64,000 nucleotides of DNA from Methylorubrum populi (GTDB lineage: Bacteria > Pseudomonadota > Alphaproteobacteria > Rhizobiales > Beijerinckiaceae): the NCBI RefSeq assembly GCF_002355515.1, contig NZ_AP014809.1:4984501-5048500 (forward strand), given 5' to 3'. Shown one piece after another: positions 37,679-44,562 of the stretch. The translations under genes and the position numbers were made by a program. Within the stretch, counting starts at the first letter, position 1; each line of letters opens with the position of its first letter. A model generated the notes under the pieces. That model ran no database searches. It was given only the letters and a program-made list of their open reading frames with translations, and was not told the DNA's origin.

Positions 37679-37903
37679 CTACCCCTCTGCGGGGGAGGGT
37701 TTGGAGGGACGAGCCGTAGAGTCTTCCTCGCGCTGAAGCTTTTCCTCAACGGCCGTGCGGATGAATGTAGCCATGCGCTGCTCCCCAACCAGCGCAATTA
37801 TGCGCTCCTTGGCCCCAGCATTCAGCCGGACCTTCGTCTCTTCGAGGTTCATGGCAGGGCGGCCCATACGTCGGCCCATAACCGGGGACGGAATATTCGT
37901 CAA
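37679..37903 (-). CDS. Ribbon-helix-helix regulator 1 (TTG start)
   Basis: A 74-residue protein if read from TTG at 37903, which sits 5 bases after a GAGG ribosome site. The core TKVRLNAGAKERIIALVGEQ then FIRTAVEEKLQREE has the beta-strand plus two helices of RHH (CopG/Arc) DNA-binding proteins. It aligns with the RHH protein at 42271 (TLVRFKEG...RIDAVAG...YIRDVVETSLARDE). Later ATGs at 37879 and 37852 are possible, but the TTG is supported because the same leader and start occur in the paralogue. Divergent from the gene at 37985; probably autoregulated through the operator array at 37878-37978. Confidence 0.75.
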   Translation of the reverse strand: MTNIPSPVMGRRMGRPAMNLEETKVRLNAGAKERIIALVGEQRMATFIRTAVEEKLQREEDSTARPSKPSPAEG

Positions 37904-37978
37904 AATCGCCTCATAAGCGGGGACGCTTATTGACATATAAGCGGGGACGGTTATTTTGTCCATATCCGCGACGGAGAT
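37878..37978. promoter_or_regulatory. Operator array and face-to-face promoters of RHH module 1
   Basis: Copies of the motif ATAAGCGGGGACGSTTAT are centred at 37886.5 (imperfect), 37921.5 (arms ATAAGCG/CGCTTAT perfect), 37945.5 and about 37969.5 (degenerate): spacings 35, 24 and 24. A plus promoter TTGACA (37930-37935), 16 bp, TATTTT points to the gene at 37985. A minus promoter TGGACA (37962-37957), 16 bp, TTATAT points to the RHH gene. The third operator fills the space between both -35 boxes, so one bound repressor would block both. Confidence 0.7.
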
Positions 37979-37984
37979 ACCGCC

Positions 37985-38170
37985 ATGGCCTACTGCTACC
38001 CCGATCCGAACAGGGACTATCCCGAACGCGAGTGGAAAGTTTGGGAGGTCTTCAGCAAGGCGACCGGCTTCGTCGGCACGGTCCGCGCGCCCCGCAAGGC
38101 GCTGGCCGCATTCCACGCCGAGCGTGAATTCTGCCTGCGGGCCGGCTCCTACTATCTCGGGAGGGCCTAA
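37985..38170 (+). CDS. Hypothetical phage protein (61 aa)
   Basis: Starts MAYCYPDPNRDYPEREWKVW and contains FCLRAGSYYLGRA at its end. Small, aromatic-rich and soluble; no known domain. First gene behind the RHH-1-controlled promoter, and its stop overlaps the next start (TAATG). Confidence 0.6.
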   Translation: MAYCYPDPNRDYPEREWKVWEVFSKATGFVGTVRAPRKALAAFHAEREFCLRAGSYYLGRA

Positions 38171-38466
38171 TGCTCACCGACGCACAGCACCTAGCCCTCA
38201 AGAAACTCCGCGATCACGGGGGCGAGGGCGTCATCGACAAGCATGGCAAGGTCGTCGCGAGCGGTGAACGCTTGCTCGGCTTGGAGCCCGTGACGTGGCT
38301 CCGGCTCATCACAACCGGCCACATTGAGGTGCGCGGAGATCTGCGCATCGGGATCACGGCGAAGGGGCGCGATGCGCTCGCTGCTGCGCCGGGGCTGAAG
38401 GTCAACCCGCACGGCATCCAGGGCAGCAGTCATCAGCAGCCCGCCCGGCACGCAGGAGCAGAGTGA
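38170..38466 (+). CDS. Hypothetical phage protein, possible winged helix (98 aa)
   Basis: Starts MLTDAQHLALKKLRDHGGEG; the pattern LKKLRDHGGEGVID, LEPVTWLRLITTGHIEV, RIGITAKGRDAL resembles a short winged-helix fold whose C-terminal strand pair ends in ITAKGRDAL, as in many MarR/PadR-like domains. The last 25 residues look disordered. Function unknown. Overlaps its neighbours at both ends. Confidence 0.55.
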   Translation: MLTDAQHLALKKLRDHGGEGVIDKHGKVVASGERLLGLEPVTWLRLITTGHIEVRGDLRIGITAKGRDALAAAPGLKVNPHGIQGSSHQQPARHAGAE

Positions 38467-38771
38467 TGGAGGTCGGACGCGTACAGGGCGCCACCCGCTA
38501 TCTCGGGGCGCCGGCCGGATGGGAGCCTGAGAAAGACGGGCACTGCGCACATCTGCCGATCAGAGACGAGCCGCACAGCCCTGGCGTCAATCGGATGACT
38601 TCGGCTTGGTTGCCGACGCCAGACGAGCTTTCGCGGATCGCAGCAGGAGCGCCAATCTACCTCGTCATCCTTGGTGTCTCACACCCGCCCGTAGCCCTCA
38701 TGGTTGGCGATCCACCGAGCCTGACCGAGCATCAGCCAGATCACGCTCAACCGCAGCCGAGGCAAAGATGA
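38466..38771 (+). CDS. Hypothetical phage protein (101 aa)
   Basis: Starts MEVGRVQGATRYLGAPAGWE with TGA/ATG overlap to the previous gene. The C-terminal half (SAWLPTPDELSRIAAGAPIY, LVILGVSHPPVALMVGDPP) resembles a short conserved phage domain of unknown function. No membrane segment. Confidence 0.55.
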   Translation: MEVGRVQGATRYLGAPAGWEPEKDGHCAHLPIRDEPHSPGVNRMTSAWLPTPDELSRIAAGAPIYLVILGVSHPPVALMVGDPPSLTEHQPDHAQPQPRQR

Positions 38772-38962
38772 GAACGCAGAAGACCACTCAGTTGCGCGAG
38801 AGCCGCGAGGCGGACGACGAGATCGCCTCCGTCGATTGGAAGGCGGCGCCGCATGTCGTGCTGGAGGCCGTAGATCGTCTCCTAGCCGAGGAAGGGCTTG
38901 AGATCGTCATGCTCGACACAGGCAGCGACCAGTACGAGTTCATCGTGGAGGCGCGGCGATGA
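38768..38962 (+). CDS. Hypothetical phage protein (64 aa)
   Basis: Small acidic protein from ATG at 38768 that overlaps the previous stop (ATGA). It contains VDWKAAPHVVLEAVDRLLAE and IVMLDTGSDQYEFIVEARR, a compact alpha/beta pattern. Unknown function. Confidence 0.6.
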   Translation: MRTQKTTQLRESREADDEIASVDWKAAPHVVLEAVDRLLAEEGLEIVMLDTGSDQYEFIVEARR

Positions 38963-39486
38963 GCATGTCCGTCGAGGCCAAAGCCGTCACCGCGTGGCTG
39001 TCCGATCAGATGTGTCGCGTGGAGGAGCCTCTAGTCTGCGGCTTCGGCAACTCCCTGAGTGAGGACGGCGCGCGTCGCCTCCTTGCCGTGATGGATGGCG
39101 TCACAGAGCACCCGACGAACGACACGCTTCAGAAGCTCGGCGCCTTCGAGCGCAAGACGAAGGTCAACAAGCACACGGCGACCCATTGGGGCTATCTGCG
39201 GGGTGTGATCGACGCGCTGGACGCGGCCGGTCACTCAGACGCCGCCGACGTGCTGGTCTGGCAGGTATGGCACCGGATGAACAGCGCCGCCCGCCACAAC
39301 GAGTTCTATCGTCTTGTCCTCAAGGAGAAGGCCGAGGTCGAGACCGAGAACGCCCGCCTGATGCGGTTGCTGACGGACGGTCCAGCCAACCCGCAGGAAT
39401 GCGCCGAGTTCTGTCGCACGGCTCGGGATGACGGCGATGGCAAGCCCTGCCTCGACTGCGATCCTGAACGCTTCTGCATTGCCTAA
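38959..39486 (+). CDS. Hypothetical phage protein (175 aa)
   Basis: Starts MSMSVEAKAVTAWLSDQMCR (ATGA overlap with the gene before). Helical middle part (THWGYLRGVIDALDAAGHSD, LVWQVWHRMNSAARHNEFYR), then a coiled-coil-like stretch, and a Cys-rich C-terminus (CAEFCRTARDDGDGKPCLDC) that may bind a metal. Function unknown. Confidence 0.6.
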   Translation: MSMSVEAKAVTAWLSDQMCRVEEPLVCGFGNSLSEDGARRLLAVMDGVTEHPTNDTLQKLGAFERKTKVNKHTATHWGYLRGVIDALDAAGHSDAADVLVWQVWHRMNSAARHNEFYRLVLKEKAEVETENARLMRLLTDGPANPQECAEFCRTARDDGDGKPCLDCDPERFCIA

Positions 39487-39520
39487 CCCGCCCTCCCCTT
39501 CCTGCTGAACGGAGAGAATG

Positions 39521-39832
39521 ATGAGCGAGAACGAGACCTTCTACGACAATGAGATCGCCCCGGCTCTCGCCGGTCTGGCCAAGCGCTGCCAGGATCGCGG
39601 CTTGTCTTTCCTAGCCGTGGTTGAGTGGGAACCCGGCGAGCACGGTCGGACGCTCACCCTTCAAGCCGGCAGCGGCCTCGGCATCCGCATGGCTGACGCG
39701 GCGGCGCAAGCCGGCAACAACGCCGATGGCTTGATCCTCGCCCTGATGAAGTACGCGCACGAGCACGGTCATAGCTCGATGCTGTTGAAGCAGCTCGGCG
39801 TGCCGCTGACGCCCGAGAAGAGCGCCGCCTAG
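39521..39832 (+). CDS. Hypothetical phage protein (103 aa)
   Basis: Starts MSENETFYDNEIAPALAGLA with a GGAGAG ribosome site 6 bases upstream. Soluble, mixed alpha/beta (RGLSFLAVVEWEPGEHGRTL); the C-terminal helices include LILALMKYAHEHGHSSMLLK. Unknown family. Confidence 0.6.
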   Translation: MSENETFYDNEIAPALAGLAKRCQDRGLSFLAVVEWEPGEHGRTLTLQAGSGLGIRMADAAAQAGNNADGLILALMKYAHEHGHSSMLLKQLGVPLTPEKSAA

Positions 39833-39875
39833 CCCCACCCCACCCGATCCGTCCTTCGTGAAGAGAGGCCAAGCC

Positions 39876-40112
39876 GTGAGTGCAGAGATCGTCTTTGATC
39901 GTGATTGCCAGAGCGCTCCGTTCTGGCTCCGCATTCCGGTTGCCGAGGGTAACGTCGCTATCGTGGAGCTTCCCGGCTGCGTTTCGCTTCCGGCCGCCGT
40001 TCGCCGAGCCGACGAACTCGGCCACTTCCCGATGCACTGGTGGCAGGCAGACAGCCGAGTCCGCATGCCGATCCCGAGCGGTATCGTCCGCACGCTACTC
40101 CCCGCATCCTAG
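39876..40112 (+). CDS. Hypothetical phage protein (78 aa)
   Basis: GTG at 39876 is preceded by GAGAGG; an earlier GTG at 39858 lacks a ribosome site. The sequence SAEIVFDRDCQSAPFWLRIP and GHFPMHWWQADSRVRMPI is beta-rich and aromatic. Function unknown. Confidence 0.55.
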   Translation: MSAEIVFDRDCQSAPFWLRIPVAEGNVAIVELPGCVSLPAAVRRADELGHFPMHWWQADSRVRMPIPSGIVRTLLPAS

Positions 40113-40123
40113 GAGCCCTCCCG

Positions 40124-40393
40124 ATGTCAGAACAAGCCGTGTGGAAGTTCCCGGTTCGCATCGCGGACGGACGCCAAGAGATAACCGGGCCGGGGCTGCC
40201 GAGGCCGGTCCACTTCGCTCTGCAAGACGGCATCCCAACCGTGTGGGCCGTCGTCTCACCATGGGAGCGGCACGAACTGCCGCGCGGCATCTACATCGTC
40301 GGCACGGGGCATCCGATCCCCACAGGATGCACGCACGTCGGCTCGCTGCAAGACGGCGGCTTCGTCTGGCACCTGTTCATGGAAGGCCAGTGA
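40124..40393 (+). CDS. DUF7352-like phage protein (89 aa)
   Basis: Starts MSEQAVWKFPVRIADGRQEI and has HFALQDGIPTVWAVVSP, IYIVGTGHPIP, HVGSLQDGGFVWHLFME: a small all-beta domain that occurs widely in phages and bacteria (DUF7352-type pattern WxFPxxxxD...GxGHP.....HVGSxxxGxFVWHxF). Role unknown; a host-modulation or structural role cannot be told apart. Confidence 0.7.
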   Translation: MSEQAVWKFPVRIADGRQEITGPGLPRPVHFALQDGIPTVWAVVSPWERHELPRGIYIVGTGHPIPTGCTHVGSLQDGGFVWHLFMEGQ

Positions 40394-40450
40394 CCGCCTT
40401 CGCCGGCAGATCGAACGGCTGGAGAGCCTGGAGTTTTAGGGGAGAGGATG

Positions 40451-40714
40451 ATGGCTCCGACCCGCCTACGAATGAGGATCAGGTGCGCCGTCTGTGACAA
40501 GCCGGTCGATGAGTGGACGATGTGGGAAAACCCCGCCGACATGTCGCGGGGGATCAAGGTCCGCTGTCACGGCGAGGAAGACAGCATGAAGATGACGTGG
40601 GGCTTTTTGGCCGACCTCACTCCGGATGAGCGGCGCCGGCTAGAGCAGTCCGAGGGGGTTGCCTTCGCCACGAAGCGCTTGCCCCGCCCCACCGCATGCA
40701 AGGCAGAAGGATAG
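40451..40714 (+). CDS. Small zinc-ribbon-like phage protein (87 aa)
   Basis: Starts MAPTRLRMRIRCAVCDKPVD. The CAVC pair near residue 12 and a CH pair in VRCHGEEDSMKM (about 39) could coordinate one zinc ion. The C-terminal half holds TPDERRRLEQSEGVAF. An in-frame ATG directly before (40448) is the alternative start; GGGGAGAGG lies upstream. Confidence 0.55.
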   Translation: MAPTRLRMRIRCAVCDKPVDEWTMWENPADMSRGIKVRCHGEEDSMKMTWGFLADLTPDERRRLEQSEGVAFATKRLPRPTACKAEG

Positions 40715-40718
40715 GACG

Positions 40719-40886
40719 ATGGACGCCAGAGAGATCGCGAACCGGATTGCGCTCCTGCTCAACCCGATGCCCGATATGAGCGGCCAGCAGATCAACCGCT
40801 TCCATGGCGAGCGGCGTCGGCGCATCGAAGACCTAGCCGCAGAAATTGCAGCTATCGAGAAGGATTGGTTGATCCGACCTCGCTAG
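40719..40886 (+). CDS. Small helical phage protein (55 aa)
   Basis: Starts MDAREIANRIALLLNPMPDM; the second half (NRFHGERRRRIEDLAAEIAA) is a charged helix. Its stop codon overlaps the stop of the convergent transposase gene by 2 to 3 bases, so no spacer or element end separates them. Confidence 0.5.
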   Translation: MDAREIANRIALLLNPMPDMSGQQINRFHGERRRRIEDLAAEIAAIEKDWLIRPR

Positions 40887-42274
40887 GCGGCAAGGTCGAA
40901 ATCGGGGTCCAGGGTTGATAGGCCCTTCGGCTGGTCGAACCGGCGACCGTCCCGGACGATGTAGAATTCGGCGCTGAACACGTCGGAAAGGCGGCCCAGG
41001 TCCACGCCCCAGTGGTACGTTTCCAGCGGCTCCACGTTGGCCCCGCCGCCCATGAAGGCGCCGGGGTGCCGGTCCCGGAAGGTCTTGTTCTCCAGCTTGC
41101 CGGCGAGCATCAGCTTCGCCCGCATCACCTCGAACGAGTAGCCGCGCCCGTCCCGCTGTAGGTCGTCGAGAAAGCGGTTGACCGACTCGACGTAGCCGGT
41201 GGTGTAGGGTTCCTCGAAGTAGGCCAGAACCATCGGCATCCAGCGTCGCTGGATCGCGCACTTAGTCTTGTAGGCCAGAGACACGGTCGGCGGTAACGTG
41301 GCGAGCCAATCCTTGTAGTAAGTCTCGGCCTCAGCAGGGGACGAGCACAGATAGAGGTCGCAGTACCGCTCCTTGGTCCAATAAGCGTCATGCAGGATCG
41401 GCCAGCGGTTGCACCAGTTGTTGATGGTAGCTTTCTGCTCCTCCGAAGTCTGGCTCCATCGGGTGCGGAATAGCTGCCGGGACATGCGCAAGGCGGCCCC
41501 CTCGCGCCTATCCGGCAGCCGCTTCGCCACGGCGGCGCGGATGTTGTCCAGCACCTCGTTGGCCGCGCGCGTGACGTGGAAGCGGTCGGTCACGTGAAGG
41601 CGCCCAGGCAGACACCTTCGTATCATCTTGCGGTAACCGTCGAACCGATCAGTGACAACGACTTCCAGCCGCCGATCCTCGGACAACTGGTTGAGGTAAA
41701 GTTCAAGCGTCTCACCTCTGTCCTTCAGCATGTCGAGGACGGTCAGTTCCTCAAGGTTGCCCATCACGGCACGGAACTCGCCGCGTAGCTTCTTCTCGTC
41801 GATCCCAAGGACGCGCGGCGTCTCGCGATGGAGCTTTGCTATCTCAACTGAAGTGTAGGCGTCGAACGCTTTTGCAACCGACTTCGGGTCCACATAAACA
41901 TCACGGCCGATCTCGGCGAACGTCCGACGCATAGCTTGTCGGGCCATCCAGAGTACAAGACGGCGTGTCATCAAGAAGCCGGGCTCCTTGAAGGGCAGCG
42001 TTTCCGAGATCGCGTCGTTGCCGACGACTTCGCCCGCCTCGTTCTTACAGTCAGGGCAAGCGAACCTCTGAACGCTGAACTCGATCAGCGTCGCCTTGCC
42101 GTGGTGCGGCACGTCGTTGATGCCCGTGACCCTCGTACCGTTCTTGCGCAGCTTGCACGCGAGGTTACACGCCTGCGCGGTCGGCCTGCGAGACCGTGCG
42201 TGGACAACGTAGTGATCGTCCGCCTCTTCTCGTGCCGTCTCTACGACGCCGGGCAGGTTGAGCAGATCGCTCAC
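40883..42274 (-). CDS. ISL3-family transposase
   Basis: A 463-residue DDE transposase. An N-terminal zinc-finger region (CNLACKLRKNGTRVTGIND through QRFACPDCKNEAGE), an HTH (LVLWMARQAMRRTFAEIGRD) and then the catalytic triad: Asp in RVLGIDEKKLRGEF (about 168), Asp in RLEVVVTDRFDGYRKMIRR / HVTDRFHV (about 222-247), Glu in TTGYVESVNRFLDDLQRDGR (about 375). All look intact. Its ATG overlaps the stop of the RHH gene (ATGA), so it is the second gene of an RHH-controlled operon. No terminal inverted repeats are visible to me around the pair. Confidence 0.88.
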   Translation of the reverse strand: MSDLLNLPGVVETAREEADDHYVVHARSRRPTAQACNLACKLRKNGTRVTGINDVPHHGKATLIEFSVQRFACPDCKNEAGEVVGNDAISETLPFKEPGFLMTRRLVLWMARQAMRRTFAEIGRDVYVDPKSVAKAFDAYTSVEIAKLHRETPRVLGIDEKKLRGEFRAVMGNLEELTVLDMLKDRGETLELYLNQLSEDRRLEVVVTDRFDGYRKMIRRCLPGRLHVTDRFHVTRAANEVLDNIRAAVAKRLPDRREGAALRMSRQLFRTRWSQTSEEQKATINNWCNRWPILHDAYWTKERYCDLYLCSSPAEAETYYKDWLATLPPTVSLAYKTKCAIQRRWMPMVLAYFEEPYTTGYVESVNRFLDDLQRDGRGYSFEVMRAKLMLAGKLENKTFRDRHPGAFMGGGANVEPLETYHWGVDLGRLSDVFSAEFYIVRDGRRFDQPKGLSTLDPDFDLAA

Positions 42275-42492
42275 GGCTGCTCCCCCTCGGCAGCCCCTTT
42301 GCGCGACTTCCGCTTCTCGTCCCTCGCCAGGGATGTCTCGACGACATCGCGGATGTACTCAGCGCGGCGAAACTTGCCCGCGACCGCGTCGATGCGGTCG
42401 AGCGTGCCCTCCTTAAAGCGGACGAGCGTCTTGTCTTTGAACGGTTCCTTGGGCACGGCCACGGTTGTGACCGATATCGGTTTCCGAGTCAA
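42271..42492 (-). CDS. Ribbon-helix-helix regulator 2 (TTG start), upstream of transposase
   Basis: A 73-residue protein read from TTG at 42492, five bases after GGAGG. It aligns over the RHH core with the protein at 37679 (TLVRFKEGTLDRIDAVAGKF versus TKVRLNAGAKERIIALVGEQ). The C-terminal tail is basic (KRKSRKGAAEG). It probably represses its own operon and the divergent gene at 42577 via the array at 42471-42565. An upstream TTG at 42504 is in frame but overlaps the ribosome site. Confidence 0.78.
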   Translation of the reverse strand: MTRKPISVTTVAVPKEPFKDKTLVRFKEGTLDRIDAVAGKFRRAEYIRDVVETSLARDEKRKSRKGAAEGEQP

Positions 42493-42565
42493 AACCGCCT
42501 CCAATGCGATATCGCTTGTTGACCCGTATCCGATGTCGGATTAGGTTTCAATCAGATATCGGATT
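42471..42565. promoter_or_regulatory. Operator array and face-to-face promoters of RHH module 2
   Basis: Four GATATC-centred palindromes: CCGATATCGG (42471-42480), GCGATATCGC (42506-42515), ATCCGATGTCGGAT (42528-42541) and AATCAGATATCGGATT (42550-42565, one mismatch). Centres are 35, 24 and 23 bp apart. A plus promoter TTGACC (42519-42524), 17 bp, TAGGTT serves the gene at 42577; the third palindrome fills that spacer exactly. A minus -35, TTGAAA (42551-42546), serves the RHH gene. The layout matches module 1 base for base in spacing, with a different operator sequence. Confidence 0.75.
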
Positions 42566-42576
42566 GGAGCCTGTTC

Positions 42577-43392
42577 ATGGATCAATCATACGTCGATGCC
42601 GCCGCAGCGGTCGAAGGCGTCGCCCAGGAGCTTGAGGGCATCGGTCGTTCAGGCTCTGCGAAGATGCTTCGCAATGCCTTCGACGCGCTGCTCGGCGTGG
42701 ATGAGGCGGCGGACTTGCCACCGGCAGATGACGCCACCCGTCGCACCGTAGTTCAGGCTTGGGATCGGTATCGACAGGGCGTGGGCGCAACCGAGGTCGC
42801 GGATTTGAAGCGTGAGAACGCGGACCTCATAGCGCGCAACTTCGCTTGCGGGCAGCAGCTTGAGGAGATGAGCGACGCGCTGATGATCGCCGAGCGGGAT
42901 GTGAGTGAGGCCGCCCGCGATGTGCTGGCCGAGAGGCGACGACAGATTGAGGTAGAAGGCTGGACGCCGGAGCATGATGACGCCCACAACGGCGGGCAAC
43001 TTGCGGCGGCGGCGGCGGCCTATGCGACCGCCGGTCGGCAGCTTGATGCGCTCGGCGGTCCCGGCCCCTTATGGCCCTGGGAGCTTCAGTGGTGGAAGCC
43101 GCGATCTTACCGCGACAACCTCGTGAAGGCCGGAGCCCTGATCCTCGCTGAGATTGAGCGGCTGGACCGGAGGCGCCTGCAAGTTTCGGCTGGGCGAGAG
43201 AATAGCGAGACCTATGAAAAGGCCCGCGCCATTGCCGAGGCTGCCGCCAATCGGTGGGATAAGTTCAGCGATACCGCTGGGGTGCGCTGGCTGACTGACG
43301 CGATCATGGAGTTTGGCGCTCTACCTCGCGACGATGGCCGGTGCATGTGCGCCGCCTGCCGAGATGCACGAGAGCGAACTAAACCCGCATGA
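42577..43392 (+). CDS. Phage protein with ERRRQI-EGW-HDD module (271 aa)
   Basis: An N-terminal helical region (MDQSYVDAAAAVEGVAQELE), a coiled coil (VADLKRENADLIARNFACGQ), then a conserved phage module: DVLAERRRQIEVEGWTPEHD, DAHNGGQLAAAAAAYA, WPWELQWWKPRSYRDNLVKA, GALILAEIERLDR. The module occurs in many phage proteins; its role is unknown to me. A Cys motif (CMCAACRDARER) ends the protein. First gene of the RHH-2-controlled plus operon, with GGAG before the ATG. The same module recurs at 43814. Confidence 0.72.
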   Translation: MDQSYVDAAAAVEGVAQELEGIGRSGSAKMLRNAFDALLGVDEAADLPPADDATRRTVVQAWDRYRQGVGATEVADLKRENADLIARNFACGQQLEEMSDALMIAERDVSEAARDVLAERRRQIEVEGWTPEHDDAHNGGQLAAAAAAYATAGRQLDALGGPGPLWPWELQWWKPRSYRDNLVKAGALILAEIERLDRRRLQVSAGRENSETYEKARAIAEAAANRWDKFSDTAGVRWLTDAIMEFGALPRDDGRCMCAACRDARERTKPA

Positions 43393-43434: not shown

Positions 43435-43541
43435 TCTCGATGGGCCGATCAACCCGATTTTCCCGTGTGGTGTCCGGCCCGATGGATCACTCATCAGCCC
43501 GATGTTCCCGATACCCTGGATATCTACTAAGGAGGCTTCGC

Positions 43542-43766
43542 GTGAAAGACTACAACGATAACGATGTCCGGTTCATCCGGGGCATGATCCCGCACCACGA
43601 GATGGCAATTCGAATGGCGAACACGGAGATCGTCTACGGGTCGAACCCCTGGGCGAAGCAGTTGGCGCTTCGCATCAGGGCTGCTCAACAGAACGAGATC
43701 GACCAGATGCGGGCATGGCTTAGCCAACGGGGCCTGTCGGAGTCCGGAGGCGGGCATTCGATGTAG
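43542..43766 (+). CDS. DUF305-like protein (74 aa), GTG start
   Basis: A GTG at 43542 with an excellent AAGGAGG site 6 bases upstream begins KDYNDNDVRFIRGMIPHHEM, then AIRMANTEIVYGSNPWAKQL and IRAAQQNEIDQMRAWLSQRG. This is the DUF305 pattern (D-x-x-F-x-x-x-MIPHHxxAIxMA...I...Q..EI..M..WL), a helical bundle whose His/Met residues are thought to bind metal in copper-related proteins. Most DUF305 proteins are exported; this one has no signal peptide. An ATG-started longer frame from 43389 lacks a ribosome site. Confidence 0.8.
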   Translation: MKDYNDNDVRFIRGMIPHHEMAIRMANTEIVYGSNPWAKQLALRIRAAQQNEIDQMRAWLSQRGLSESGGGHSM

Positions 43767-43813
43767 TCGTCTTTCCGGAAGACGGTGAGGTTATGCACTT
43801 GTGGGAGCCCTCA

Positions 43814-44272
43814 ATGGACGCCAAAGGCATCTACGACTGCCCATATTGCGGAGTTGATCGTGAGCCATGCCACGGCGAGGCCCAAATCCGAGAGCGGACA
43901 CAGGCTGGCGACGCGCAATGCGCCAGTGCACTGACTCACATCGTCTCGTCGCGTGCTCGGCGTGACATTTTGGCAGAGCGAATGCGCCAAGTGTCTGCCG
44001 AAGGCTATTCTTTCGAGCACGACGACAATCATGCTCGCGGTGAGTTGGCCGCCGCCGCTGCGTGTTACGCTCTGCCCGTGGCAGTCTACACTGGCTGTTT
44101 AGCGCCATTTCCCCCGAGGGGAACTCTTGGGCTTAAGCTGGCCAATCACGTCTGGCCGTGGGCTCCAGGCAGCTTTAGGCGGAAGAGCCGCAGAGAAGAT
44201 TTGATCCGCGCAGCAGCGTTGCTTATCGCTGAAGTGGAGCGGCTGGATCGTTTAGAGGTGCGCGGCAAATGA
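43814..44272 (+). CDS. Second phage protein with the ERxRQ-EG-HDD module (152 aa)
   Basis: ATG at 43814 follows GGGAG. The N-terminus has a CPYC zinc-like motif (GIYDCPYCGVDREPCHGEAQ). Then the module seen at 42577 returns: DILAERMRQVSAEGYSFEHD, DNHARGELAAAAACYA, HVWPWAPGSFRRKSRREDLI, RAAALLIAEVERLDR. So it is a diverged paralogue of the module. Its stop overlaps the next start (ATGA). Confidence 0.7.
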   Translation: MDAKGIYDCPYCGVDREPCHGEAQIRERTQAGDAQCASALTHIVSSRARRDILAERMRQVSAEGYSFEHDDNHARGELAAAAACYALPVAVYTGCLAPFPPRGTLGLKLANHVWPWAPGSFRRKSRREDLIRAAALLIAEVERLDRLEVRGK

Positions 44273-44562
44273 AAGACACCACGAGAGGTTATGCTGCTGT
44301 TCTCGCGGTCGTCCGCTCGGCCTGGGCGCTCGTGGACAATACGGCTTATCACGATTGGCTTCCACTCACCGTCAGCCGCGATGATTGGAATGACTTGGTG
44401 GCCGATCTCAACACACTGAAAGCGCTCATCCCGCCTGATGAGCTGCCGGCCGAGCCGCCTCACGCTGTTACCTGCCTGTGGCCTGGGCGTTCATCAACCC
44501 GGAATGGCGAAGCGGAGTTCGAGCCCGCCTCCTTGCCATCAACCAAAGCTTCTCAGGTGTGA
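44269..44562 (+). CDS. Hypothetical phage protein (97 aa)
   Basis: Starts MKDTTRGYAAVLAVVRSAWA; helical N-terminal half with WNDLVADLNTLKALIPPDEL, and a low-complexity C-terminus. The second half runs into the 20-bp direct repeat, so the native C-terminus may have been altered by duplication. Unknown function. Confidence 0.5.
   Translation: MKDTTRGYAAVLAVVRSAWALVDNTAYHDWLPLTVSRDDWNDLVADLNTLKALIPPDELPAEPPHAVTCLWPGRSSTRNGEAEFEPASLPSTKASQV

Follow-up and report, generated by a model that had tools for sequence, protein, structure and literature searches.

Phage P22 carries two RHH repressors, Arc and Mnt, in a single immunity region. The locus described here resembles that arrangement: a single phage has two RHH repressors whose operators differ, and an operator lies between the −35 and −10 boxes. 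It differs in that its two modules, A and B, are separate cassettes with arrays spaced at 24/35 bp, belong to a large family, and have one of their sites within the beginning of the gene. A second point of comparison is the Cluster A mycobacteriophages, whose stoperators are dispersed over the phage genome. The open-licence literature, in the portions of text available, yielded no description of arrays or of a recognition code for this RHH family. In the Cluster A report (PMC6550527), the repressors are described as a family in which immune specificity evolves along a continuum; the present family is likewise a set of often phage-borne putative repressors with apparently evolving specificities, but unlike in that immunity system, the operators of the window lie almost only at their own modules.

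Among curated protein families, YlcI/YnfO (NCBIfam NF041551) matched 15 of 21 members at E ≤1, with a best value of 2.1e-7. In Escherichia coli, ynfO and ylcI are prophage genes too, next to the packaging gene noh and with lysis genes a few kb away. Neither window protein, however, passes the curated cut-off of that family, and at this cut-off (30 bits) a search of the window's genome returned 0 places. No repeat of the kind described below was found upstream of E. coli ynfO or ylcI, and the two were rejected as array-bearing family members for lack of an array. The ynfO and ylcI loci (L204:4757-4990 and L205:14252-14446) resemble the window modules in position. The best NF041551 match in the window's genome (L203) had, by eye, an unrelated layout and was also rejected. 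CopG-type regulators of known structure (chains 6iya, 7etr, and 7by2) matched weakly over the RHH part (E 0.0017 to 0.0064), and Pfam RHH_1 was matched by 1 of 21 members (E 0.0029). A structure model of the gene A product contains two helices, H31-39 and H44-63, which are preceded by an invariant arginine, R26; in this single-chain model (pLDDT 71.7) the RHH strand is not formed, and a Foldseek structure search with it gave no match.

The window, by which we mean the whole 64-kb stretch of DNA that was analyzed, holds one end of a prophage of ~77 kb, which extends from ~34.6 to ~112 kb in extended window coordinates, with limits estimated from gene content. The prophage genes include an integrase, portal, terminase, major head, tail sheath, and CI-like repressor, and an endolysin gene and a baseplate gene fall within the window. 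Modules A and B are placed between the lysis genes and the left prophage end. Phage and plasmid collections contained no near match to the window stretches searched.

A preliminary description of this DNA had reported one layout occurring twice, and both reading and computation confirmed it. RHH gene A (37679..37903, minus strand, 74 aa) starts with TTG at 37903 behind a GAGG, and RHH gene B (42271..42492, minus strand, 73 aa) starts with TTG at 42492 behind a GGAGG. In both modules a plus-strand TTGAC, at 37930 and 42519, respectively, lies 27 bp from the TTG, as had been claimed, and the minus −35 box starts 27 bp past the start of the plus −35 box (by eye). The operator spacings of 35/24/24 bp in A and 35/24/23 bp in B were also borne out, the last site of A being degenerate and read by eye, and the operator sequences of the two modules do differ.

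In module A, operator O1 (37879..37894, centre 37886.5) lies within the first codons of the RHH gene. O2 (37914..37929, centre 37921.5), which reads TAAGCGTCCCCGCTTA along the gene, comes directly after the divergent −35 box; O3 (37938..37953, centre 37945.5) occupies the spacer common to both proposed promoters; and O4 (37962..37977, centre 37969.5), read by eye, is degenerate and retains 6 of 8 core bases. The divergent promoter (37930..37957, plus strand; TTGACA-16-TATTTT) passes the consensus scan. The proposed promoter of RHH gene A (37934..37962, minus strand; TGGACA-17-TATATG), with its −35 box at 37957-37962, was read by eye and is absent from the scan list. With the minus promoter so read, the two opposing promoters overlap almost completely, and O3 therefore sits in both spacers. 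A run of small phage genes (37985..40886, plus strand) lies behind the module, divergent from the RHH gene. When up to one mismatch was allowed, operator A occurred at only 2 sites in the 5.94-Mb genome, both in its own array.

Module B repeats this order, with O1 (42468..42483, centre 42475.5) within the first codons of the RHH gene, followed by O2 (42503..42518, centre 42510.5), O3 (42527..42542, centre 42534.5), and O4 (42550..42565, centre 42557.5). Its proposed divergent promoter (42519..42547, plus strand; TTGACC-17-TAGGTT) was read by eye and is absent from the scan list, and its minus −35 box is TTGAAA at 42546-42551 (by eye). Because neither proposed promoter of B passes the consensus scan, the −10 boxes of this module are uncertain; the plus promoter of A is the only one of the four proposed promoters that passes. 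Exact copies of operator B were found in the 5.94-Mb genome only at its own array, and at one mismatch there were one further array site and five scattered single sites elsewhere in the genome, none of the five within the window. A run of phage genes (42577..44881, plus strand) lies behind B, divergent from its RHH gene. On the other side, an ISL3-type transposase gene (40883..42274, minus strand; Pfam DDE_Tnp_ISL3, 9.2e-41; phrog_5749, 7.8e-72) has a 4-bp overlap with the end of RHH gene B.

Further RHH modules, which the preliminary description had proposed to seek among relatives, proved to be numerous, and the RHH family of A and B is large and often phage-borne. In the genus, 43 of 111 genomes matched at E ≤0.001, many of them weakly. 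In the order, at least 10 of 397 genomes matched at E ≤1e-6, at least 7 of them outside the genus; these counts are lower bounds, since part of the candidates per genome was scored. Named genomes yielded 17 loci and virus contigs 1, 54, and 25 loci, partly overlapping, and a protein database held at least 1,500 relatives. The record set drew on 24 of the 51 match rows of the genus search (E ≤5.4e-10, both window genes included), all 7 listed places outside the genus, the named-genome loci except L091, which was already in the set, and virus loci. Five of the latter (L127, L141, L145, L160, and L170) were removed manually because each was a gene already represented by another locus, and L071 and L072 are not in the set. 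This gave 120 records, from which 3 without the anchor residue and one without upstream DNA (L014) were removed to leave 116; after removal of 9 near-copies, 107 nonredundant upstream regions were available.

As a sequence feature, the arrays and their position beside the −35 box are real and conserved. Direct repeats 20 to 39 bp apart were found upstream of the gene in 84 of 107 members, compared to 98 of 812 control windows drawn from those same records, and were lacking in the other 23 regions. The corresponding counts with inverted matches, 96/107 and 180/812, also take in hairpins, while the 84 are direct repeats only. Direct 10-base repeats with at most one mismatch lay 25 bp apart in 24 promoter regions, compared to 0.4 expected from the control windows, and 35 bp apart in 12, again with 0.4 expected. 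Overall, the repeat distances peaked at 25, 23, 24, 35, 43, and 60 bp. Among triplets scoring >28, the commonest O3-O2/O2-O1 spacing was 25/35 (15 loci), followed by 24/35 and 23/33 (6 each). The divergent −35 box, read as GTCAA along the gene, was present in the expected stretch in 61 of 107 regions versus 18 of 728 background windows, leaving 46 regions without GTCAA in the stretch searched. The sequence adjoining it recurred nearby in 55 of these 61; the six rows lacking a recurrence (L075, L086, L087, L111, L113, and L125) were dropped. Recurrences of the sequence after GTCAA fell mainly at −25 (20 loci), +35 (13), −43 (13), and −24 (12).

We propose, with a probability of about 0.7, that each module may be a divergent cassette that regulates itself, is portable, and serves accessory phage genes, with a specificity that is diversifying. 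Three or four short near-palindromic sites would make up the array bound by the RHH protein. Of these, O1 lies in the first codons of the protein's own gene, O2 next to the −35 box of the divergent promoter, and O3 in the spacer of that promoter and, in module A, of the opposing one as well. From this anatomy we infer that the array mediates repression of the RHH gene itself together with the divergent run of accessory phage genes; since binding would shut both directions, the switch would be autoregulated and local. Binding, repression, and the overlap of promoters would all be part of this mechanism, and diversification may proceed through avoidance of cross-talk. The operator spacing would be inherited and kept nearly constant, while the operator sequence would change in all copies together, along with residue 24 and its neighbors on the strand inserted into the DNA groove. 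Exchange of the cassette among phages would also occur, so that one gene set would come to be found behind different specificities.

The genes behind the two modules bear on this last step. Positions 38968-39463 of the window, behind A, are 89% identical to a stretch behind the module of L046, the operators of which are CGCCATACG; L046 also has pieces of the window's lysis side, between 46247 and 47701. Behind B, positions 43518-43770 and 44186-44544 are 89% and 86% identical, respectively, to stretches behind the module of L058, with operators (CAGATATCTG and variants) unlike those of B. Genes behind A and B thus recur behind modules with other operators, which suggests that the specificity of the switch changes while the adjoining genes stay. 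Those adjoining divergent genes would be under the control of the module's switch.

How a repressor and all of its sites can change together without loss of control is an old question. Because position is enough to locate the sites in many relatives, this family offers paired protein and operator sequences, with 20 distinct operator cores among 55 loci, and makes an RHH recognition code directly testable. For ten of the 55 operators, the centre was reset with a palindrome rule that took no account of the protein; the rule also shifted some nonpalindromic cores. After recentring, strands of the L-V-R, V-V-R, and V-I-R types went with the core CGATATCG in 11 of 12 loci and with AGATATCG in one; A-V-R went with CGATAACG in 4 of 5; P-A-R went with TGATATCA or AGATATCA in 14 of 14; and K-V-R went with CGGGGACG in 2 of 3, A being one of them. 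Residue 24, on the predicted DNA-reading strand, is K in A and L in B. When all 47 protein columns were ranked by their association with the core, residue 24 came first (0.526) and residue 22 second, and the same two led after the ten operators were recentred (0.597 for residue 24). For the outer operator base, residue 25 came first in one ranking and second in another. In 27 independent pairs, with any core difference counted, residue 24 again ranked first (P = 0.0012, compared to 0.07 before recentring); when at least two core differences were required, it fell outside the top five columns. A partial Mantel test gave a weak correlation for the three strand residues (r = 0.074, a value reached in 12 of 999 permutations), and more of the operator distance was explained by the remainder of the protein (partial r = 0.259). 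A candidate specificity code for the RHH family is supported by these comparisons, though not by every test.

A closer comparison was provided by A and L045. Outside the cores, their leaders are identical at 29 of 34 positions as far as O2 and at 17 of 33 beyond it; the three cores are all CGTCCCCG(C/G) in A and all CGCCATACG in L045, with 10 of 27 bases in common. The N-terminal peptide was compared with the strand in the best 120 of at least 1,500 database proteins, of which 110 carry the strand motif. Within these best 120, K-V-R (K at residue 24) occurred with an N-terminal GT or SP in 9 of 9, P-A-R with IS in 45 of 50, and L-V-R with IS in 9 of 16 and with other peptides in 7. Such a pairing would in part be expected if the N-terminal peptide is the translation of O1. 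The value of the GT-versus-IS test (2.5e-9) overstates the association, since the proteins are related and the classes were picked after the pattern had been seen. A fuller reading, which we hold tentatively and at slightly less than even odds, is that the family is a portable phage cassette of locked geometry in which the reading strand and all operator copies would change together and many independent specificities coexist. Because one operator copy is written in the repressor's own first codons, the N-terminal peptide would then betray the operator, and a natural RHH recognition code could be read from nothing more than sequence. The modules point to small, apparently independent repressor-promoter units, and this RHH switch family is a possible natural record of how repressor recognition changes.

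Several other explanations have to be weighed against the proposed cassette. The association between operator and residue might reflect shared ancestry rather than recognition, and two results lean that way: operator distance tracks the identity of the rest of the protein, as noted above, and several other columns associate with the operator too, outranking residue 24 in one pair test. We nevertheless regard ancestry as an unlikely explanation, given that residue 24 ranked first in all-column tests without having been preselected and that RHH gene B (winB) and L126, which are 32% identical outside the strand, have the same strand residues, T-L-V-R, and the same core, CGATATCG. Ancestry of another sort had been invoked in the preliminary description, which took A and B for a duplication within this phage that then diverged to two specificities. 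They do have the same layout, and B finds A at 39% identity, but a tree of 116 rows contradicts this origin. There, P0092, P0094, and L014 stand with A inside a 14-row branch (100/81) from which B is absent, and L047 and L054 stand with B (100/94), so that each has relatives from other genomes beside it. Few columns underlie the tree and many of its forks elsewhere are open, but the branches that part A from B are supported, and in this tree A and B are not each other's nearest relatives. The layout, moreover, occurs family-wide; because this geometry belongs to the whole RHH family, its presence in both modules is no mark of a private duplication, and a recent duplication inside this phage is scarcely tenable. 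What stands of the two divergent switches proposed earlier is one architecture with two specificities, layouts suggesting autoregulation, and sites (almost) only at the own locus; what falls is the duplication origin.

The modules could also be lysogeny repressors that set superinfection immunity, as their divergent layout, several operators, and diverse specificities resemble immunity regions, and some phages carry two modules with different operators. This seems improbable. At another place, the same prophage has a separate CI-like repressor gene (L068:2204-3100, corresponding to 96203-97099 in extended window coordinates; phrog_4, 6.1e-19), which makes it unlikely that the modules act as the master lysogeny switch of this prophage. 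Across loci, the mechanically chosen first divergent ORF varies and by eye is mostly small and unknown; this variability, together with the CI-like gene, is why we rate a master immunity switch low. The sites of operators A and B are not spread over the genome, as the dispersed sites of such an immunity repressor would be. The best match also lies within 10% of the record end in 25 of 45 virus records, a placement in keeping with accessory regions located at the ends of prophages; many of the records, though, may be fragments. As for phages with two modules, the count covered 46 of 78 virus loci, in 45 records, and 5 of the 45 had at least two matches. Four of them (G501, G506, G508, and G511) carry two modules each, with different operators, and the window adds a fifth case. 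G508 has a third match, which lacks an array, and G502 has two additional ones, both weak and located at a hairpin rather than at an array. A random pair of members has the same core about 1 time in ten, as estimated from core counts, and different operators in 5 of 5 two-module phages therefore say little; five cases are too few to show cross-talk avoidance. Toxin-antitoxin pairs commonly include a small RHH gene with autoregulatory sites, so the RHH protein could in principle be an antitoxin and the arrays the autoregulatory sites of such a pair. No conserved downstream partner was seen in the 120 records (near-copies included), however, and we consider this reading very improbable: a downstream ORF of ≥60 aa was absent in 56 records, cut in 5, and present in 59, and the 59, picked mechanically, had diverse products by eye. 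The gene next after gene A is placed on the other strand, though a mechanically picked ORF of 151 aa on the strand of gene A also exists.

Several minor features of the relatives were recorded. Among the listed members, L048, L049, L050, L053, and L056 were without obvious phage context, and several lay beside resolvase-like genes (by eye). L202 (G502:C1:44000-45300) has two short RHH-like genes back to back across a long hairpin, with weak family matches. In L054, a copy of the B operator stretch (L054:1887-1961; 84% over 75 bp) is separated by ~330 bp from the RHH match, as though something had been inserted between the two. An ISL3-type transposase gene directly 3′ of the RHH gene was seen in 6 of 120 records (the window, L014, L047, L076, L125, and L137), that of L047 being short. 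The RHH genes so followed span distant branches, for example, those of A (L014) and B. In L101, an ISL3-type transposase lies ~2 kb downstream of the RHH gene, and L058 has a short look-alike (by eye).
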